A stretch of 64,000 bases of DNA from Maribacter huludaoensis (GTDB lineage: Bacteria; Bacteroidota; Bacteroidia; Flavobacteriales; Flavobacteriaceae). The notes beneath the pieces are model-generated. The model was given only the letters and a program-made list of their open reading frames with translations. It was not told where the DNA came from and did no database searches. The stretch spans positions 32,145 to 96,144 of the forward strand of contig NZ_JARKMS010000002.1 in NCBI RefSeq assembly GCF_029350945.1. The letters are read 5' to 3'. The position numbers and the translations under genes were made by a program. Positions 19,755-57,278 of the stretch are shown here, one piece after another; position 1 is the first letter of the stretch, and the number at the start of each line of letters is the position of its first letter.

Positions 19755-21842
19755 CTAATTTATCCCTTCACCATTACCAACTCCATCCTCATCTGGGTTG
19801 ACGAATACCAATTTTCCATCGGCATTTTCAGTCATTAGAATCATACCTTCACTTTCAACACCGCGCAATGCTCTTGGTGCCAGGTTGACTAACACTGTTA
19901 CCTTTTTACCAACTATTTCTTCTGGTTTAAAGCTTTCTGCAATACCGGAAACTATGGTTCTAACATCTAATCCGGTATCAACTTTAAGTACTAAAAGCTT
20001 TTTGGCTTTCGCCATTTTTTCAGCTTCGATAATGGTACCTACTCGCATATCCAATTTAGAAAAATCATCAAAGGTAATCGTATCTTTTTGTGGCATTACT
20101 TGTTTGTTTTCGTTCTCGTTGGCTTTTTTGGTCGCTTCTAATTTATCTAACTGAGTTTGTATCTCGGCATCCTCAATTTTTCTGAAAAGTAACTCTCCTT
20201 TATTTATTTGATGTTCAGGTTTCAATAATGCTTCTTTATTAGAAACATCTTTCCAGTTAAGACTTCGGCTACGCTCAGTCCCAGAAGAAGATAGATTTAA
20301 AATATTCTTTAATTTATTAGAAGTAAATGGTAAAAATGGCTCACTTAAAACAGCTAAACCTGCAGCTATTTGTAAAGCCACGTTCATAATTGTTTTTACG
20401 CGTTCTTCATCTACCTTGATGACCTTCCATGGTTCTTCATCGGCTAAATATTTATTACCTAAACGAGCCAAATTCATTAATTCTTGACCAGCTTCTCTAA
20501 AACGGTAGCGCTCAATAGAACTTGAAATGATTTCAGGGTATTTTGTTAATTGTTCTAGGGTTTCAGTATCAACGTTGGTTAAACTACCTGTAGCTGGTAT
20601 TTTACCATCATAATATTTGTTGGTCAGTACAACTACCCTGTTAATGAAATTACCTAAAATGGCAACTAATTCATTGTTGTTACGTGCTTGAAAATCTTTC
20701 CAAGTAAAATCATTATCCTTAGTTTCTGGAGCGTTTGCTGTAAGTGTATAACGTAGCGAATCTTGCATTTCTGGAAAATCCACTAAGTATTCATGTAACC
20801 AAACCGCCCAGTTTTTGGATGTGGATAGTTTGTTGCCCTCTAAATTTAAAAACTCGTTTGCCGGTACATTTTCCGGTAAAATATAGCTTCCTTCTGCCTT
20901 TAGCATGGATGGGAAAATAATACAGTGAAAAACAATATTATCCTTTCCTATAAAGTGAACTAATTTAGTGTCTTTATCTTTCCAATAGGGTTCCCAGTCT
21001 TTACCTTCACGGGCAGCCCATTCTTTGGTAGATGAAATATACCCTATAGGGGCATCAAACCATACGTATAATACTTTGCCTTCTCCACCTTCAACAGGTA
21101 CAGGTATTCCCCAGTCTAAATCCCTGGTGACAGCCCTTGGCTCTAAGCCACCATCGATCCAAGATTTACATTGGCCGTAAACATTTGGTTTCCAATCGTC
21201 TTTATGCCCTTTTAATATCCAATCTTTAAGAAAATCCTCATATCTGTCTAATGGTAAGAACCAGTGTTTTGTTTCCTTGGTGGTCGGTACCGTTCCGGTA
21301 TTGGTCGACTTCGGGTTTATTAAATCCGTCGCATTTAAACTAGATCCACAATTTTCACACTGATCACCGTATGCTTCTTCATTTCCACACTTTGGACACG
21401 TACCTATTACAAACCGATCAGCTAAAAATTGCTGGGCTTCCTCATCATATAATTGAGCCGTAGTTTCCTCTATGAAGTCTCCTTTCTTGTAGAGTGTCGT
21501 AAAGAAATCTGACGCTGTTTTGTGATGAACGGGCGCAGAGGTTCTAGAATAATTATCGAACGTAATACCAAAATCCATAAAGGATTGTTTGATAATTGCG
21601 TGGTATTTGTCAATAATATCTTTAGGGGTAACTCCTTCTTTTTTGGCTTTCATTGAAATGGCTACGCCATGTTCGTCGCTACCACAAACAAATGCGACAT
21701 CCTTACCAGTTAATCTTAAATAACGGGCGTAAATATCTGCAGGCACATAAACACCGGCCAAATGACCAATGTGTATTGGACCATTTGTGTATGGTAATGC
21801 TGCGGTAATCGTATATCTAGAGGGTGTTTTAATATTGGACAT
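19755..21842 (-). CDS. metG: Methionyl-tRNA synthetase
   Basis: A 695-residue class I synthetase charging tRNA-Met. HIGH-type motif HIGHLAG and the KMSKS-type KLSTS are both present. Four zinc Cys ([15 protein letters not shown]) support the zinc knuckle of the MetRS group. A C-terminal EMAP-like tRNA-binding domain ([16 protein letters not shown] to GVESEGMIL) gives dimerisation and tRNA affinity. ATG at 21842 follows the alternative TTG at 21845. One copy of a 24-bp repeat, shared with the DNA ligase gene, is read in frame as TERSRS near residue 523, in the linker before the tRNA-binding domain. Confidence 0.95.
20261..20284 (-). repeat. Dispersed 24-bp repeat, copy inside metG
   Basis: The core TTCGGCTACGCTCAGT (20264-20279 on the plus strand) matches copy 3 of the array in the ligase gene at 40119-40142 without mismatch. 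It is read in the same strand and frame as in the ligase, giving GTERSRSL. It lies between the anticodon-binding and tRNA-binding parts, where MetRS sequences vary. Confidence 0.75.
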
Positions 21843-21860
21843 CAAAAATTAATTAGGCCA

Positions 21861-37042: not shown

Positions 37043-39511
37043 TTATTTCTTCATCAATAGTGCAGCCATTTTTTTAATTCGGTCTGCTAGTTTCTCGCTA
37101 GATAGTTTTTCGCGCCCAACACGTTCTGTAATTAACGGGAAGGAGAATGGTGTGGGTTGCTTACAAGCTTTCCAAATAATTTCTTGTGTTGCAATTCTTT
37201 CTAAGGATAATCGTAATCGCCCTTCTTCCAACTGGTGTTCAAAGGTTTCTGTAAAGGCTTGTTGGAAGAGTAAATTTTCTGGTTCGTAATCCCTAAATAC
37301 ATCGAACAATAGCTGGGAACTACTTTGCAAGTGCTTCATTTTAATACCTTTTTTTGGGTATCCGGTAAAGACCATACCGCTTATAATGGCAACATCCCTG
37401 AATCTTCGGCGAGCCATTTCTGTGGCATTCAGACTTTTTTGCAAATCATCCAGCATAAAATCTGTAGTGAACAGGTCATTGTCCAATACTTGCTTAATGT
37501 CTATGGGTTGGTCAGACAATAGTTCAAAACCATAATCATTGAATGCCAGCGAAAATGTAATAGGCGATAATAAACTTATGCGATAGCCCAATAAACTGCC
37601 CATGGCTTCATGAACAAATCTGCCTTCAAAAGGGTAGAAGAGGTGGTGATATCCGTCTCTGGTCTTAAAGGTTTCAATTAAAAATTCTGATGGTTTGGGT
37701 ACAATGCTATCTCGTCTTTGTCTTTCAAAAAGTGGTGCCAAAGCCCTTATTTCCTCAGATTGATTTTTTATTGGTTCACCCGAGCTATACAGTTCGTTTC
37801 TCAATAACTCTGACATTTGTGCGGAAAGGGTGAGTCGGCTCCCCATCCAACTCGATATTTTGTTGGTTTTCTTATTGCTATTACGCACCTGCACCGTCAT
37901 TTCTTTTATTCGGATGAATTCTAAGTTTCTACCGGCAAATGTAAACACGTCGCCTGTGTTGAGTTTAGAAACAAAAAACTCTTCTATAGACCCTATATAT
38001 CCTCCTTTTTGATATTTAACAGATAAATTTACATCGCCAACAATAGTACCTATTTGAAAACGGTGCCGCATGGCAACACCACGGTTATTGACCTTAAATT
38101 TGCCATCCTCCTCAATTTCTACCTTTTTGTACTCATCATAACTTTGCAGACTTTGACTGCCCATCACCAAAAAATTCAATAACCATTGCCATTGGTCTTC
38201 GGTCAACGTTTGGTAGCAAAAAGTTTGCTTCACCTCTTTAAAAATTTCTTTAGGGTAGAATCCGTCAGATATGGCCAAGGTGGTCAAATATTGCAAAAGC
38301 ACATCATAGCTGTTAAGGTAGGGTATACGGTCTTCAACAGAATTCATTTTTACCGCTTTTTGTAAAGCCGATGCTTCAATAAGCTCAATGGCGTGTGTGG
38401 GTAAAAAATAAATGACACTTTCCTTACCGGGACTATGACCACTGCGACCGGCACGTTGTAAAAAACGGGCAACACCTTTGGGTCCTCCTATCTGTACTAC
38501 CGTTTCTACAGGGGCAAAATCTACTCCAAGATCTAAACTAGAGGTGCAAACCACCGCTTTCAACTGTTCATTGCGAATTGCATTTTCAACCCAAACGCGA
38601 GTTTCTTTATTAATGCTGCCATGGTGCATTGCCATTTCTCCCGCATATTCTGGGTGCTTTTCCAAGATTTTTTGAAACCAAATTTCACATTGGCTACGGG
38701 TATTGGTAAAGAGCAAAGTGGTCTTGCTATTATTGATGATGGGGACAACATCTTCTAAAAGGTGTAAACCTAAATGACCACGCCATGGAAAGGTTTCCAT
38801 TTTTTTTGGAATGATACTTTTAACCGTAATCTTTTTGTTGAGCTTGGCTTTTATGAGTACCGAGTTTTCTATCGTTTTAGAATCAATGCCCAACAAAACA
38901 TCTCGTGCCTGTTCTAGATTGCCAATGGTTGCAGAGATGCCCCAAATTCTTAATTGCGAGGATATATTTTTTAAACGTGATAAGGCAAGTTCCATTTGTA
39001 CGCCACGCTTGGTGCCCAATATTTCATGCCATTCATCTACTACAATTGCCGAGCAGTCTTTAAAAATTTTGTCATAACCTTTTGTAGCAAGAAGTAACTG
39101 AAGACTTTCTGGAGTGGTGATCAACAGATCGGGCATATTCTTTTTTTGCTGCGCCCGCTCTTTGGTGGTAGTATCTCCAGAGCGAATACCCACGGTCATC
39201 TGTGTTCCCAGGTCTTGTGTAATGCGTTCTGCCGATTGCTTAATTTCTTGCGATAATGCACGTAATGGCGTTATCCAAATAGCTTTTAGCCCTTTTTTAT
39301 GTTTGGTCTTGTAGTTGGGATTGTTCTTTATGTAATTTAAAACAATAGGAAACCATAAAGCATAGGTTTTACCACTACCTGTTGGAGCATTTAGTAATCC
39401 GTCTTTACCTTGTAGAAACGCTTTCCAAGTATCTTTTTGAAACTTGAAGGGTTTCCAATGCTGTTCGGCGAACCAGTTTTCTGCGATGTTGTATAATTGT
39501 TCTCGGTTCAT
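37043..39511 (-). CDS. Ligase-associated DEXH-box helicase (Lhr-like)
   Basis: An 822-residue superfamily 2 helicase: Walker A NAPTGSGKTYALWFP, DEWH in VVDEWHEILG, SAT in GISATIGN, and motif VI QRAGRSGHSPG. It matches the ligase-associated DNA damage response DEXH family, related to Lhr helicases with the winged-helix and C-terminal domains typical of the group. It overlaps the ligase gene by 4 bp (ATGA), so coupling is tight. Likely works with the ligase and exonuclease in nick or gap repair. Confidence 0.92.
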   Translation of the reverse strand: MNREQLYNIAENWFAEQHWKPFKFQKDTWKAFLQGKDGLLNAPTGSGKTYALWFPIVLNYIKNNPNYKTKHKKGLKAIWITPLRALSQEIKQSAERITQDLGTQMTVGIRSGDTTTKERAQQKKNMPDLLITTPESLQLLLATKGYDKIFKDCSAIVVDEWHEILGTKRGVQMELALSRLKNISSQLRIWGISATIGNLEQARDVLLGIDSKTIENSVLIKAKLNKKITVKSIIPKKMETFPWRGHLGLHLLEDVVPIINNSKTTLLFTNTRSQCEIWFQKILEKHPEYAGEMAMHHGSINKETRVWVENAIRNEQLKAVVCTSSLDLGVDFAPVETVVQIGGPKGVARFLQRAGRSGHSPGKESVIYFLPTHAIELIEASALQKAVKMNSVEDRIPYLNSYDVLLQYLTTLAISDGFYPKEIFKEVKQTFCYQTLTEDQWQWLLNFLVMGSQSLQSYDEYKKVEIEEDGKFKVNNRGVAMRHRFQIGTIVGDVNLSVKYQKGGYIGSIEEFFVSKLNTGDVFTFAGRNLEFIRIKEMTVQVRNSNKKTNKISSWMGSRLTLSAQMSELLRNELYSSGEPIKNQSEEIRALAPLFERQRRDSIVPKPSEFLIETFKTRDGYHHLFYPFEGRFVHEAMGSLLGYRISLLSPITFSLAFNDYGFELLSDQPIDIKQVLDNDLFTTDFMLDDLQKSLNATEMARRRFRDVAIISGMVFTGYPKKGIKMKHLQSSSQLLFDVFRDYEPENLLFQQAFTETFEHQLEEGRLRLSLERIATQEIIWKACKQPTPFSFPLITERVGREKLSSEKLADRIKKMAALLMKK

Positions 39512-41217
39512 TGCGGAATTAGGTTTTTCAAATCATCCAAGGTATTTGCTTCATGGATGTTCTTATCTTTTCTCCAGCGTAGCATTCTGGGAAAACGGGT
39601 AGCAACACCACTTTTATGTCTTTTTGATAATGCTATACCCTCAAAGGCGATTTCAAACACGTGATGAGGAGTAACACTACGAACGGGTCCAAATCTTTCC
39701 AAAGTATTTTTCTTTATCCAAGCATCTAGTTTTCTGAATTCTGCATCGGTTAATCCGGAATATGCCTTTGCAAAGGTTACCAGTTCTTTTTCTCCTTCTT
39801 CATTATCCTTCCAAAGGGCAAAAGTATAATCTGTAAAAAGATTACTTCGCCTACCATGACCGCGCATGGCATAGGTAAGAACCGCATCTATGGTTAGTGG
39901 GTCAACTTTCCATTTCCACCAATCGCCCTTCTTACGACCAACTAAATAGGGCGAATCTTTGCTTTTTAGCATTAAGCCTTCACTGTGCATTTCGCGAGAG
40001 CGGTCTCTTTCTTCAGCCATCTCTTCCCATGAATTAAAATACATGGTTTTAGAGAGGTGAAGGGGAACATCACTTCGACTAGGCTCAGTGACCTCGTTTC
40101 GGCTACGTTCAGTGTCCTCACTTCGGCTACGCTCAGTGACCCCACTTTGGCTATGCTCAGTGACCGCATTTTGGTTTTGCTCTGTGACATTTTTAAAAAG
40201 ATGTTCTAAAATTTCTCTACGTTCTACAAAAGGTAATTGGCGAATATCTTCTCCTTCCCATTCAAGAATATCATATGCTTTTAAAATTACCGGAACTTTT
40301 TTTAAAAGTGCGGCGGTTACGTTTTTTCTACCAATGCGGGTTTGTAAATCGTTAAAGGTGCCAATAGCACCGTTTGGAAAAGGTAGAATTTCACCATCTA
40401 TGACCGTACCGTTTGGGATAACGCGTATGAATTTTTCAAACTCGGGATACTTATCCGTTACCAATTCTTCGCCACGGCTCCAAACAAATAATTCATTGTT
40501 TCTTAAGATCACTTGAGAACGAATTCCGTCCCACTTATGTTCTGCAGACCATTCTTGTATATCGCCTAAGTCTGACACTTCACCTTCAATGGCATACGCC
40601 AAATAGAAAGGATATGGTTTTGAAAGGTAATCGCTCTCATTTTCCTCTAAGACCAATTGCTGAAAAGTAATTTTATTCGGGTCCCAGTTGCCCATTAATT
40701 TATAGGCTAGAATATCTTCGTCAATTTCGGTGGCTTTTGCAAGGGCACGTGTCATTAGTTTTTGACTTACCCCAATTCTGAATCCGCCAGTAATCAGTTT
40801 AGTGAATACAAACCGTTCGTAGTAGTTTAAAACACTCCAATTTTCGCAGAGATATGCTCTTTTTTCTTCGTCTGTTTTCTTTTTAAGAGCAATCATTTCT
40901 TGAAGAAAATCGGTTAAACTTTTGTCCGATGATTGGTCAGCTGCCGGAATGACCAAGGCGATAGTTTCTGCAAGATCACCAACAATATGATAGCTTTCTT
41001 CAAATAACCACAGTGGAATATTTGCCAGTTCTGAAGCCCAAGTTCTTAATAGCGTTGTATTTACCGGTCTTGGTGGTCTACGATGCGATAAAATTGCGAT
41101 GGTCCAAACCTTATCGGCATCATCGGCTTTAAGAAAATAGTCGGTCAATGCCTGTACCTTAACCGTAGTTTTATTGGTACTATCCAAGGTTTTTATAAGC
41201 TGTGCAAAATTTCTCAT
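39508..41217 (-). CDS. ATP-dependent DNA ligase with an inserted 40-residue repeat
   Basis: A 569-residue ligase of the ligase-associated damage response type. It has an N-terminal helical domain, an adenylation domain with Lys228 in EHKWDGIRSQ, VIDGEILPF, and an OB-fold region (EGLMLKSKDSPYLVGRKKGDWWKWK). Between about residues 343 and 383, in the loop before EGLMLK, sits a five-copy 8-residue repeat, VTEQNQNA, VTEHSQSG, VTERSRSE, DTERSRNE, VTEPSRSD, encoded by five 24-bp tandem copies. The loop is probably at the surface, so activity is likely kept. Overlaps both neighbours by 4 bp. Confidence 0.93.
   Translation of the reverse strand: MRNFAQLIKTLDSTNKTTVKVQALTDYFLKADDADKVWTIAILSHRRPPRPVNTTLLRTWASELANIPLWLFEESYHIVGDLAETIALVIPAADQSSDKSLTDFLQEMIALKKKTDEEKRAYLCENWSVLNYYERFVFTKLITGGFRIGVSQKLMTRALAKATEIDEDILAYKLMGNWDPNKITFQQLVLEENESDYLSKPYPFYLAYAIEGEVSDLGDIQEWSAEHKWDGIRSQVILRNNELFVWSRGEELVTDKYPEFEKFIRVIPNGTVIDGEILPFPNGAIGTFNDLQTRIGRKNVTAALLKKVPVILKAYDILEWEGEDIRQLPFVERREILEHLFKNVTEQNQNAVTEHSQSGVTERSRSEDTERSRNEVTEPSRSDVPLHLSKTMYFNSWEEMAEERDRSREMHSEGLMLKSKDSPYLVGRKKGDWWKWKVDPLTIDAVLTYAMRGHGRRSNLFTDYTFALWKDNEEGEKELVTFAKAYSGLTDAEFRKLDAWIKKNTLERFGPVRSVTPHHVFEIAFEGIALSKRHKSGVATRFPRMLRWRKDKNIHEANTLDDLKNLIPQ
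40071..40190 (-). repeat. Five tandem copies of a 24-bp repeat inside the ligase gene
   Basis: Copies lie at 40071-40094, 40095-40118, 40119-40142, 40143-40166 and 40167-40190. The central copy has the core TTCGGCTACGCTCAGTG; outer copies diverge. It is also present once in metG (20261-20284). Each unit is a multiple of three and has no stop on the coding strand, so copy number can change without frameshift. Confidence 0.85.
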
Positions 41218-42239
41218 ACAGATGCTGTCGATTTTGAAGCTAATGCAGCTTCTGTTTCTTCTTCACCGTATTGCGTTGCTTCTGTACGGGCATCATAACC
41301 TTGTTCCCGTAAATATTTCGAGAATATATCTGTATAGCCATGTGTACAGATAATTTTTTCGGCGCCTGTGGCTTCAATACTTTCTAAAAGACCGGGCCAA
41401 TCGCAATGATCGCTTAAAACAAAACCTTTGTCAATAGCCCTTCTTCGTCTTGCTCCCCTAAAGGTCATCCATCCGCTTGCGGAAGCAGTAACATAGGGCA
41501 CCATTTTTCTAATCCAAGTACTACCATGTGCACTTGGTGGTGCCAATACTATATTGCCCAATAGCTGCTCTTTTTTGGTGTCTCTGGTAATTAAAGTGGT
41601 CTTGGGAAAATCTACCAACGGTCTTAGTACCTGGGTCATATTTTCAATGGCGCCATGGGTATATATTTCTCCAATGTCGGTGTCTAGGTATTTTAATAAT
41701 CGTTGTGCTTTGCCCAAACTATACCCAAAGAGTATGGATGTCTTACCTTCAGCTCTATTTTCTGCCCACCAATTGTTAATGTTTTCTAGAACTTTTGCCT
41801 GGGGTGTCCATTTAAATGCGGGTAATCCAAAAGTACATTCTGTAATAAAGGTGTTACATTTTATAGGTTCATAAGGTGTGGAAATACCATCATTTTCAGT
41901 TTTATAATCTCCTGTAAAAACCCAAACTTCACCTTTATGTTCTACCCTAATTTGTGACGATCCAATAATATGCCCGGCGGGATGTAGGCTAAATTTTACG
42001 TTGTTAATGATAAAAGTTTCGCCCCATTCTTTTCCAATAACGTTTATTTCACCTAAACGATGTTGTATAATGGGTACATTTCTGTGATGGGTTATATATT
42101 TTTTGTGCCCATATCTACTATGGTCCGCATGCCCATGTGAGATTATGGCATGGTCTACAGGTTTCCAAGGGTCAAGATAGACATTGGCCGTTTCGCAATA
42201 TATGCCATTGCTTGTAAATTGTAATAAAGGAGATTTCAT
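41214..42239 (-). CDS. Ligase-associated exonuclease, MBL fold
   Basis: A 341-residue metallo-beta-lactamase-fold nuclease with the HxHxDH motif as SHGHADHSRYG, the further metal His in LHPAGHIIGSSQI, and Asp in VFTGDYKTEND; the beta-CASP-like region follows (ILFGYSLGKAQRLLKYL, DHCDWPGL). It matches the ligase-associated damage response exonuclease family. First gene of the minus-strand operon; its stop overlaps the ligase start as ATGA. Confidence 0.92.
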   Translation of the reverse strand: MKSPLLQFTSNGIYCETANVYLDPWKPVDHAIISHGHADHSRYGHKKYITHHRNVPIIQHRLGEINVIGKEWGETFIINNVKFSLHPAGHIIGSSQIRVEHKGEVWVFTGDYKTENDGISTPYEPIKCNTFITECTFGLPAFKWTPQAKVLENINNWWAENRAEGKTSILFGYSLGKAQRLLKYLDTDIGEIYTHGAIENMTQVLRPLVDFPKTTLITRDTKKEQLLGNIVLAPPSAHGSTWIRKMVPYVTASASGWMTFRGARRRRAIDKGFVLSDHCDWPGLLESIEATGAEKIICTHGYTDIFSKYLREQGYDARTEATQYGEEETEAALASKSTASV

Positions 42240-56375: not shown

Positions 56376-57278
56376 TTACTGATTATAATGCAGGTATTTT
56401 TTTAGATCAATGTCCTCACAGATATATGAAAGATTTTCGTTGTAAATAGCCTGGTAGTCCGTATATACTTGGTCGCAGTTGCTTTCGTTATAATGAATAA
56501 TAACAACTGGTTTTTCATCATCCAAAAAACTTTGTGCACCAGAGGCATCCCACCAATTTTTATCGTCATTATAAGATTCATAAGTAACGCCATCAAAATC
56601 TTCGGCATTTTCAACGAAGTTCTTAGCCATACACTTCATTCCTTTTTCATGTACATAATTGCAAAGTTCTTGAAAATAGGCTATGCTTTGTTCTTTTGTT
56701 ACTTGTATGCCATATGTTTCTCTTGTTTCATCATACAAAGCCCAGTCCATATTATCGAATTCTACCCAATCATAGCCTAGATCGGCAATCTTATCTATTC
56801 TGGCTTTCATCACATCAACTATTCCTGTGGTAGTCGTATTTACGAAATATTCCCCTTGCCATTCCGCCCACTGTTGGGTAGTGAGAAAAGGCTGTAAATC
56901 TGAAAAATCATCTCTCCAATCTTCACCTGTACCAATACTTATGTAAGCTGCAATTTGATTTCCGTTCTCTTTTATTTCTGCTATAGATTCAATAACGTCA
57001 TCATTGAATGGGTCTACCAAAACATATGCGTTGGATGCATTTAATACTATGTATGCTACCTGGTCTACTTCATAATTTTCAATATATGCATGGTTGAAAA
57101 CTGGTATGGCGTTAAAATTTTCATTTTCTTCCGATACGTCATCCGATACGTCATCCGATACGTCATCCGATACATTATCCGATACTTCCTCGGTTACAGT
57201 TTCTGTAATACTACTGTCATCTTGATTGTTGCAGGCTATAATAGTTAAAAGTATAATAAGTAGAATACTGTTTTTCAT
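56376..57278 (-). CDS. GH114-like (endo-alpha-1,4-polygalactosaminidase-like) lipoprotein
   Basis: A 300-residue lipoprotein (lipobox LTIIAC, Cys16, then NNQDD). A low-complexity linker of VSD(D/N/E) repeats (about residues 29-48) precedes a TIM-barrel-like domain with QIAAYISIGTGEDWRDDF, DLGYDWVEFDNMDW and EKGMKCMAKNFVENAED, as in GH114/TM1410-type glycosidases. The Asp in EFDNMD is a candidate catalytic residue. Substrate not known; a galactosamine-containing polysaccharide is the family expectation. Surface display inferred from the acidic stretch after Cys. Confidence 0.8.
   Translation of the reverse strand: MKNSILLIILLTIIACNNQDDSSITETVTEEVSDNVSDDVSDDVSDDVSEENENFNAIPVFNHAYIENYEVDQVAYIVLNASNAYVLVDPFNDDVIESIAEIKENGNQIAAYISIGTGEDWRDDFSDLQPFLTTQQWAEWQGEYFVNTTTTGIVDVMKARIDKIADLGYDWVEFDNMDWALYDETRETYGIQVTKEQSIAYFQELCNYVHEKGMKCMAKNFVENAEDFDGVTYESYNDDKNWWDASGAQSFLDDEKPVVIIHYNESNCDQVYTDYQAIYNENLSYICEDIDLKKYLHYNQ
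57133..57192 (-). repeat. 12-bp tandem repeat in the GH114-like lipoprotein gene
   Basis: Five copies of GATACGTCATCC or variants at 57133-57192; the first three are identical and the last two diverge. On the coding strand they give VSDD-type repeats. Each copy is four codons, so length changes keep the frame. Confidence 0.9.

Follow-up and report, generated by a model that had tools for sequence, protein, structure and literature searches.

Does the tandem repeat inside an ATP-dependent DNA ligase gene of Maribacter huludaoensis belong to the protein, as repetitive sequence of its own, or is it a piece of dispersed DNA that has entered a coding region? The gene lies in a 64,000-nucleotide stretch of contig NZ_JARKMS010000002.1 (the window, here meaning the whole stretch analyzed), and the repeat is an array of 24-bp units that leaves the reading frame open. 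The explanation considered highly probable is a dispersed element of the repetitive extragenic palindromic (REP) kind that has undergone tandem expansion within the ligase. The element is approximately 24 bp long, with the core TGAGCGNAGYCGAA, a short, variable and self-complementary stem, and a 5' tag of the GTC type.

The host gene (39508..41217, reverse strand) encodes a 569-amino acid ligase of the cisplatin damage response type, which matches TIGR04120 and NF006701 above their cut-offs. Its array consists of five head-to-tail 24-bp units on the reverse strand (40071-40190; 40069-40188 in codon phase), and Tandem Repeats Finder calls a period of 24 at 40070-40165 and 40071-40188. The array is translated as VTEQNQNA / VTEHSQSG / VTERSRSE / DTERSRNE / VTEPSRSD, which are ligase residues 344-383. 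Compared with a 20-mer consensus, unit 3 (TERSRSE, 40119..40142) is exact, unit 1 (TEPSRSD, 40071..40094, the 3'-most in the gene) has one mismatch, unit 4 (TEHSQSG, 40143..40166) has two, unit 2 (TERSRNE, 40095..40118) has three, and unit 5 (TEQNQNA, 40167..40190), the most diverged, has more than three. The original prediction of five in-frame 24-bp repeats in an ATP-dependent DNA ligase is therefore confirmed by the repeat finder, the translation and the family match. The array falls within the PF01068 match (residues 221-437), and in alignments with two solved ligases the match ends at query residues 340 and 344 and restarts at 386 and 398, while the solved chains resume after 6 and 14 residues. 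By these alignments the array probably occupies a surface loop; of the earlier idea that the repeats expand such a loop, the loop is upheld, while its surface position is predicted from sequence alignment. With up to three mismatches allowed, a 17-mer core has five matches in the window, while 100 shuffled versions average 0.04. Outside the ligase the core is found once more in the window, as had been noted before: metG (19755..21845, reverse strand), identified by Pfam as methionine--tRNA ligase and the second host, has a single hairpin copy located by core match at 20261..20280 (reverse strand), with the arms GACT/AGTC and the in-frame reading TERSRS.

The unit is found well beyond these two genes. 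The 20-mer consensus, with up to two mismatches, has 18 matches in the source genome while its reversed control has none, and 17 exact copies of CTGAGCGNAGYCGAAG are present. The latter sequence is present in 209 of the 397 family genomes examined, at 0-75 copies each and with no match for the reversed pattern, and in 72 of 247 genomes of the phylum sample, where the control has a single match in each of two genomes. At least 118 stretches of named genome contigs contain CACTGAGCGNAGYCGAAGTG; besides Bacteroidetes, the 80 stretches listed include members of seven other phylum-level groups: Cyanobacteria, Spirochaetes, Chloroflexi, Planctomycetes, Proteobacteria, Kapaibacterium, and Woesebacteria/Daviesbacteria. 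The element is on viral contigs as well, with GTC no more than 10 nt to the 5' side in 41 of the 148 matches listed and in 14 on the mirrored side. Palindromes related to the element are probably widespread among genomes. Most sites in the source genome hold a single copy and some are outside long open reading frames (ORFs), and the commonest spacing of same-orientation pairs is exactly 24 bp (seven pairs). Two arrangements outside genes are of separate note. Locus L504 (G254:C1:2577000-2577255) has six exact copies that repeat every 40 bp where no ORF of 120 amino acids is present, and the intergenic copies L006, L007, and L016 and their relatives adjoin short arrays (for example of CAACGAG or AGCGTAT units) whose lengths differ among the source genome, G452, and G407.

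By assigned label, G452 is of the same species as the source genome and G407 is of the sister species. The ligase loops compared come from 30 loci of the genus and from G452. Loop length among these 31 ranges from 11 to 54 codons, and 25 of them fall into three series with a spacing of eight codons: 11/19/27/43/51, 12/20/28, and 23/31/39. No copy within four mismatches is found in 8 of the 30 genus loops, an inverted copy is present in 9 of the 31, and decayed copies are seen in some. The arrays of G452 and G407 are both 48 bp (two units) shorter than that of the source genome and are otherwise alignable with it, so the copy-number change that had been suggested for this gene is seen within one species. 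The insertion in the ligase is widely common within the genus, and its copy number was altered later. Steps of eight codons between relatives are also what would result from local replication slippage of a chance sequence to which the dispersed copies are unrelated; however, slippage explains copy number and not dispersal, the dispersed copies are far above chance, and most source-genome sites are single, which leaves this alternative scarcely credible. A search of 60 genomes returned five matched ligases from outside the genus (G001, G432, G441, G445, and G447), and the array insert is absent from all five, the match ending at residue 342-345 and restarting at 380-388. An insert shared by distant genera, named in the original prediction as the mark of ancestral protein sequence, was thus not the case for these five ligases.

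Gene hosts other than the ligase show how varied the readings of the element can be. Among 30 genus loci the metG loop is empty, has a copy in the TERSRS frame, has a copy in the LSAVE frame, or, in a few, has two opposed copies. LeuS of the source genome reads AERSQS, while a Flavobacteriaceae contig (L169) has a copy in the LSGAE frame in the same region. Three type I restriction specificity subunits (Methylase_S; L027, L056, and L548) have the element near residue 194-213 of 399-452, in a reverse-orientation frame in two and a forward frame in one. Because the copies in metG, leuS, and hsdS are in different frames or orientations, insertion recurs. Pfam was applied to 20 host proteins in addition to the ligase and MetG, and these include LeuS, an ORF with GatB and AspS, topoisomerase IA, an Mfd-like helicase, the three HsdS-type specificity subunits, a PurL-type synthase, a NuoF-like protein, a ketoacyl synthase, two aminotransferases, and a TonB receptor, while Pfam has no match for three of the 20 (L517, L527, and L553). 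A HisH ORF from Spirochaetaceae has two in-frame units 24 bp apart. Two further ORFs are recorded as side observations. In L512:1-3015, GatB and an aspartyl-type tRNA synthetase share a single open frame; the element lies between the two, and a gene fusion may have occurred where it inserted. The ORF in L260 that reads TERSRSVIGVDLGRRDIAT also carries the element, and presumably encodes a TnpB-type protein.

Read in six frames, the element has a stop codon in only one. Three of the open frames account for 61 of 67 genic copies (TERSRS 21, LSxxE 21, and TSTPLS 19), and the other two are used five times and once. When a copy is counted as genic if it lies in an ORF of at least 150 amino acids with at least 30 to either side of it, the count is 24 of 149 copies compared to 459 of 715 positions taken at random in those loci, and 43 of 172 compared to 494 of 708 in loci from the cross-phylum contig scan, although some of the ORFs counted may be spurious, mainly in GC-rich loci. 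Copies are therefore depleted in long ORFs, at 16-25% against a background of 64-70%. These observations also bear on the possibility that the array is ancestral repetitive protein sequence of the ligase, selected as a peptide, with only incidental likeness elsewhere. That possibility is very improbable, since the same core occurs outside long ORFs in the source genome, copies are also read in other frames and in reverse orientation, the five matched ligases outside the genus do not have the insert, and the arms covary at the level of DNA, as described below. The earlier view of the unit as a dispersed element in genes and not a random internal duplication agrees with the genome-wide copies, the copy-free orthologous loops, and the varied frames and orientations.

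The element is a dispersed, REP-like, imperfect hairpin. On the strand that reads CTGAGC the core TGAGCGNAGYCGAA is common to the copies, while the arms vary between copies and are mostly complementary within a copy. In a set of 149 distinct copies, taken from the source genome and from listed places in genomes of the family and phylum and thus not a random draw, the three arm positions beyond the CT/AG pair are complementary in 85, 77, and 52% of copies compared to 33-34% when the right arms are shuffled. There are 38 distinct arms in this set, and in 23 copies the pairing stops at CT/AG. A GNA triloop and tandem G-A pairs may stabilize the hairpin. Folding as DNA gives the expected hairpin, with z from -2.5 to -3.2, in three of six sequences, two of which are the complementary strands of one copy. 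GTC is present no more than 10 nt to the 5' side in 74 of the 149 copies compared to 12 on the mirrored 3' side, and one of CGTC, TGTC, GGTC, or CCTC is at positions -7 to -4 in 44 compared to 5 mirrored, with TGTC in 41 of these and CGTC in three. The commonest 3-mers on the 5' side are GTC and TGT, and in many source-genome copies GGT or GGTC precedes the stem. Genomes G519 and G606, both of the same class, have among the matches listed nine close inverted pairs of the form CGTCATGCTGAGC...GAAGCATCTC, all head-to-head (HH) and approximately 50-70 bp apart with the tags outside; their tags are mostly exact CGTC, and the dimers of G519 start with AT. In the loci examined overall, pairs no more than 130 bp apart are HH in 33 cases and tail-to-tail (TT) in 31.

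The arms covary among copies and among orthologs of one gene. For the ketoacyl synthase, 30 loci gave 29 segments, of which 20 were kept (19 distinct rows) and nine were dropped because the core was unrecognizable in register; among those dropped, two (L650 and L652) seem to be decayed copies, and in L653 a core-like sequence stands in a different register. At each of two stem pairs, both sides are altered in 7 of the 19 distinct rows, with G-U intermediates. Cells with a double change number 15 compared to 5.1 after shuffling, and the covariation score is 0.344 compared to 0.269 (0 of 500 shuffles as high in either case), while slid structures have no more than two double-changed cells. The source genome and G452 differ at this site by two double changes, and the source allele is also 18 bp shorter beside the element, so recombination is possible there. 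Either selection acting on the hairpin or templated (quasipalindrome) correction would maintain the arm pairing.

Covariation of this kind, which at one orthologous site within a gene passes through G-U/G-T intermediates, would also be expected if the hairpin had a cellular job, such as mRNA structure, termination, or protein binding, for which it is selected at each site including the genic copies, and the 12 aligned sites common to the source genome and G452 agree with that as well. However, templated quasipalindrome correction yields the same covariation, the distribution is patchy (209 of 397 genomes, with widely differing copy number), and copies in ligase loops have decayed. A cellular job is accordingly held to be unlikely as the explanation.

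A REP-associated tyrosine transposase (RAYT) was considered as the mover of the element. In a classical REP of the GTAG type moved by its own RAYT, the REP-like size, the hairpin, and the inverted dimers of G519 and G606 would all be explained. Y1_Tnp (PF01797) was searched for in the source genome, in the 397 family genomes, and in 24 chosen genomes of the family and 15 of the phylum. Presence of the element is associated with Y1_Tnp over the 397 genomes (raw odds ratio 3.3) and in genomes smaller than 2.5 Mb (p = 0.005, 48 genomes), but stratification by size (236 of the 397 genomes) reduces the Mantel-Haenszel odds ratio to 1.9, and the three strata above 2.5 Mb are not significant. The source genome has no Y1_Tnp match, nor do 29 of the 67 genomes with at least 10 cores. 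Among the 90 best-scoring Y1 loci returned, the core is within 1.5 kb of one, which by a rough estimate is what copy density alone would give. In addition, the tag resembles GTC and not GTAG. Y1/RAYT transposase is not linked to the element in the loci tested, and mobilization by a RAYT of its own is distinctly improbable.

Site turnover looks slow beside change in array length. Of 21 source-genome loci compared, a counterpart in G452 was retrieved for 15, and for four (L017, L027, L036, and L037) none was retrieved from G452 or G407. One event is suggestive of insertion: locus L609 of G452 has an extra 24 bp, which hold an inverted copy set within an older copy's loop, and the older copy is present without it in the source genome (L012/L020, C7:751076-751133) and in G407 (L617), although two neighboring bases differ too.

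Several results count against a dispersed element with tandem expansion. The element is kept at 12 of the 12 sites that were aligned with G452, in a comparison whose G452 and G407 sites were chosen for having a known copy, which makes empty sites invisible; most copies are therefore old. A clean insertion footprint was not obtained from the source, G452, and G407 loci compared, and in neither the ligase nor metG does a single clean insert account for the difference between filled and empty loops. Folding as DNA gives no support for the hairpin in the other three of the six sequences. Among the ketoacyl-synthase rows, whose kinship inflates the shuffle control, pairs with a double change number 3 compared to 1.4 shuffled (34 of 500 as high) and further pair types number 8 compared to 7.6 (313 of 500 as high). 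No mobilizing enzyme turned up, Y1 being the sole family searched.

The history that best fits a dispersed element begins with a copy that would have entered a linker in the catalytic domain of the ligase (PF01068) early in the genus. The copy would have stayed because extra residues are tolerated in that linker and because only one of the six frames of the element contains a stop. With a unit of 24 bp, or eight codons, copies could then be gained and lost without frameshift, and the loop grew to five units, probably by slippage or unequal recombination between the direct repeats. New copies elsewhere may form at replication forks from hairpins of single-stranded DNA, through a transposase acting in trans or through template switching, and any single way of movement can be proposed only tentatively. 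A more far-reaching proposal, rather doubtful at present, is that the same hairpin with its 14-nt core spreads across phyla without a dedicated transposase, by template switching at forks that re-templates the arms, and forms a stackable 24-nt loop module that re-enters the linkers of ligase, tRNA synthetases, and restriction specificity subunits.

On the reverse strand, the ligase gene is flanked by genes for a ligase-associated DEXH helicase (37043..39511, TIGR04121) and a ligase-associated exonuclease (41214..42239, TIGR04122). Other tandem arrays in the window are at 1-91 (14-bp x6.5), 143-207 (7-bp x9.3), and 57130-57185 (12-bp x4.7).

The published class that the element most resembles is the CGTC-tagged REP super-family of Di Nocera et al. 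(2013), short palindromes described from several phyla including Bacteroidetes (G. forsetii). The portions of that survey drawn on here describe CGTC, or TGTC or CCTC, at the foot of an 8-9 bp stem whose first two pairs are AT, with a 3-nt tail that is mostly CCA; they report HH dimers as predominant, TT dimers as rare, and head-tail dimers as negligible, and no association with transposase genes (PMC3733652). The element is like these repeats in its presence in several phyla, alternative complementary stem residues, units within genes, and lack of a linked transposase (Y1 family tested). A 5' tag of the GTC type is present in part of the copies, and HH dimers occur, with TT dimers nearly as frequent in the loci examined. 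The element is unlike these repeats in that only 44 of the 149 copies have CGTC or TGTC at the fixed position, the stem is short with an internal mismatch and has approximately three pairs beyond CT/AG, base -3 is A in only 48%, and the units here form 24-bp head-to-tail arrays. A CCA-type tail was not found in the 3' flank composition of the 149 copies. Because the stem and tail differ from the published description and the tag agrees with it in part, membership in the CGTC REPs is not claimed; the two are related in kind, as compared by description and not by consensus sequence.

The Rickettsia palindromic elements (RPEs), which the original prediction considered similar in concept, also include in-frame palindromic repeats in unrelated genes. 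That part of the comparison stands, while the best-matching kind is the published REP class and the sizes differ: RPEs are described, in the part of the source used, as approximately 150 bp with a conserved ORF (PMC10969869), compared to 24 bp here, and they belong to another host group. RPE-4 and RPE-6 are nevertheless counted as CGTC elements in the same survey text (PMC3733652). The GTAG REP/REPIN with RAYT share the hairpin and inverted dimers, but the element has no GTAG/GTGG guide, no REPtron arrangement at the 90 Y1 loci tested, and no Y1 match in the source genome. The passages used from another study describe TnpAREP subclass 2.4 as abundant in Cyanobacteria and Bacteroidetes and report in-frame insertions in genes (PMC6006769). 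REP counts for Flavobacterium genomes are given in a RepRanger paper seen in part (PMC12306157), in the text of which the string CTGAGC does not occur, and text searches of the literature for the core and octad strings returned no relevant paper among the matches listed.

What moves REPs of the CGTC type, and whether they continue to give rise to new copies, are described as open in the sections of the 2013 survey cited here (PMC3733652). The element offers a tractable case, with a densely sampled genus, orthologous sites that are empty, single, tandem, or opposed in the ligase, metG, and ketoacyl-synthase genes, and two genomes of one species whose copy numbers differ. It also provides sites where selection on the hairpin can be separated from templated mutation as the cause of stem covariation, and it is a small dispersed element that lengthens an enzyme in fixed steps of eight codons. 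REPs inside genes are already known, including those in ligase and tRNA-synthetase genes: the lists of REP-carrying genes in the portions of the survey used, which pool GTAG and CGTC, have repair genes, tRNA synthetases, and a DNA ligase of O. terrae, a species placed under GTAG there (PMC3733652). Added here are a core shared across phyla with variable paired arms, an 8-codon ladder with change within a species, and recurrent use of the same linkers.
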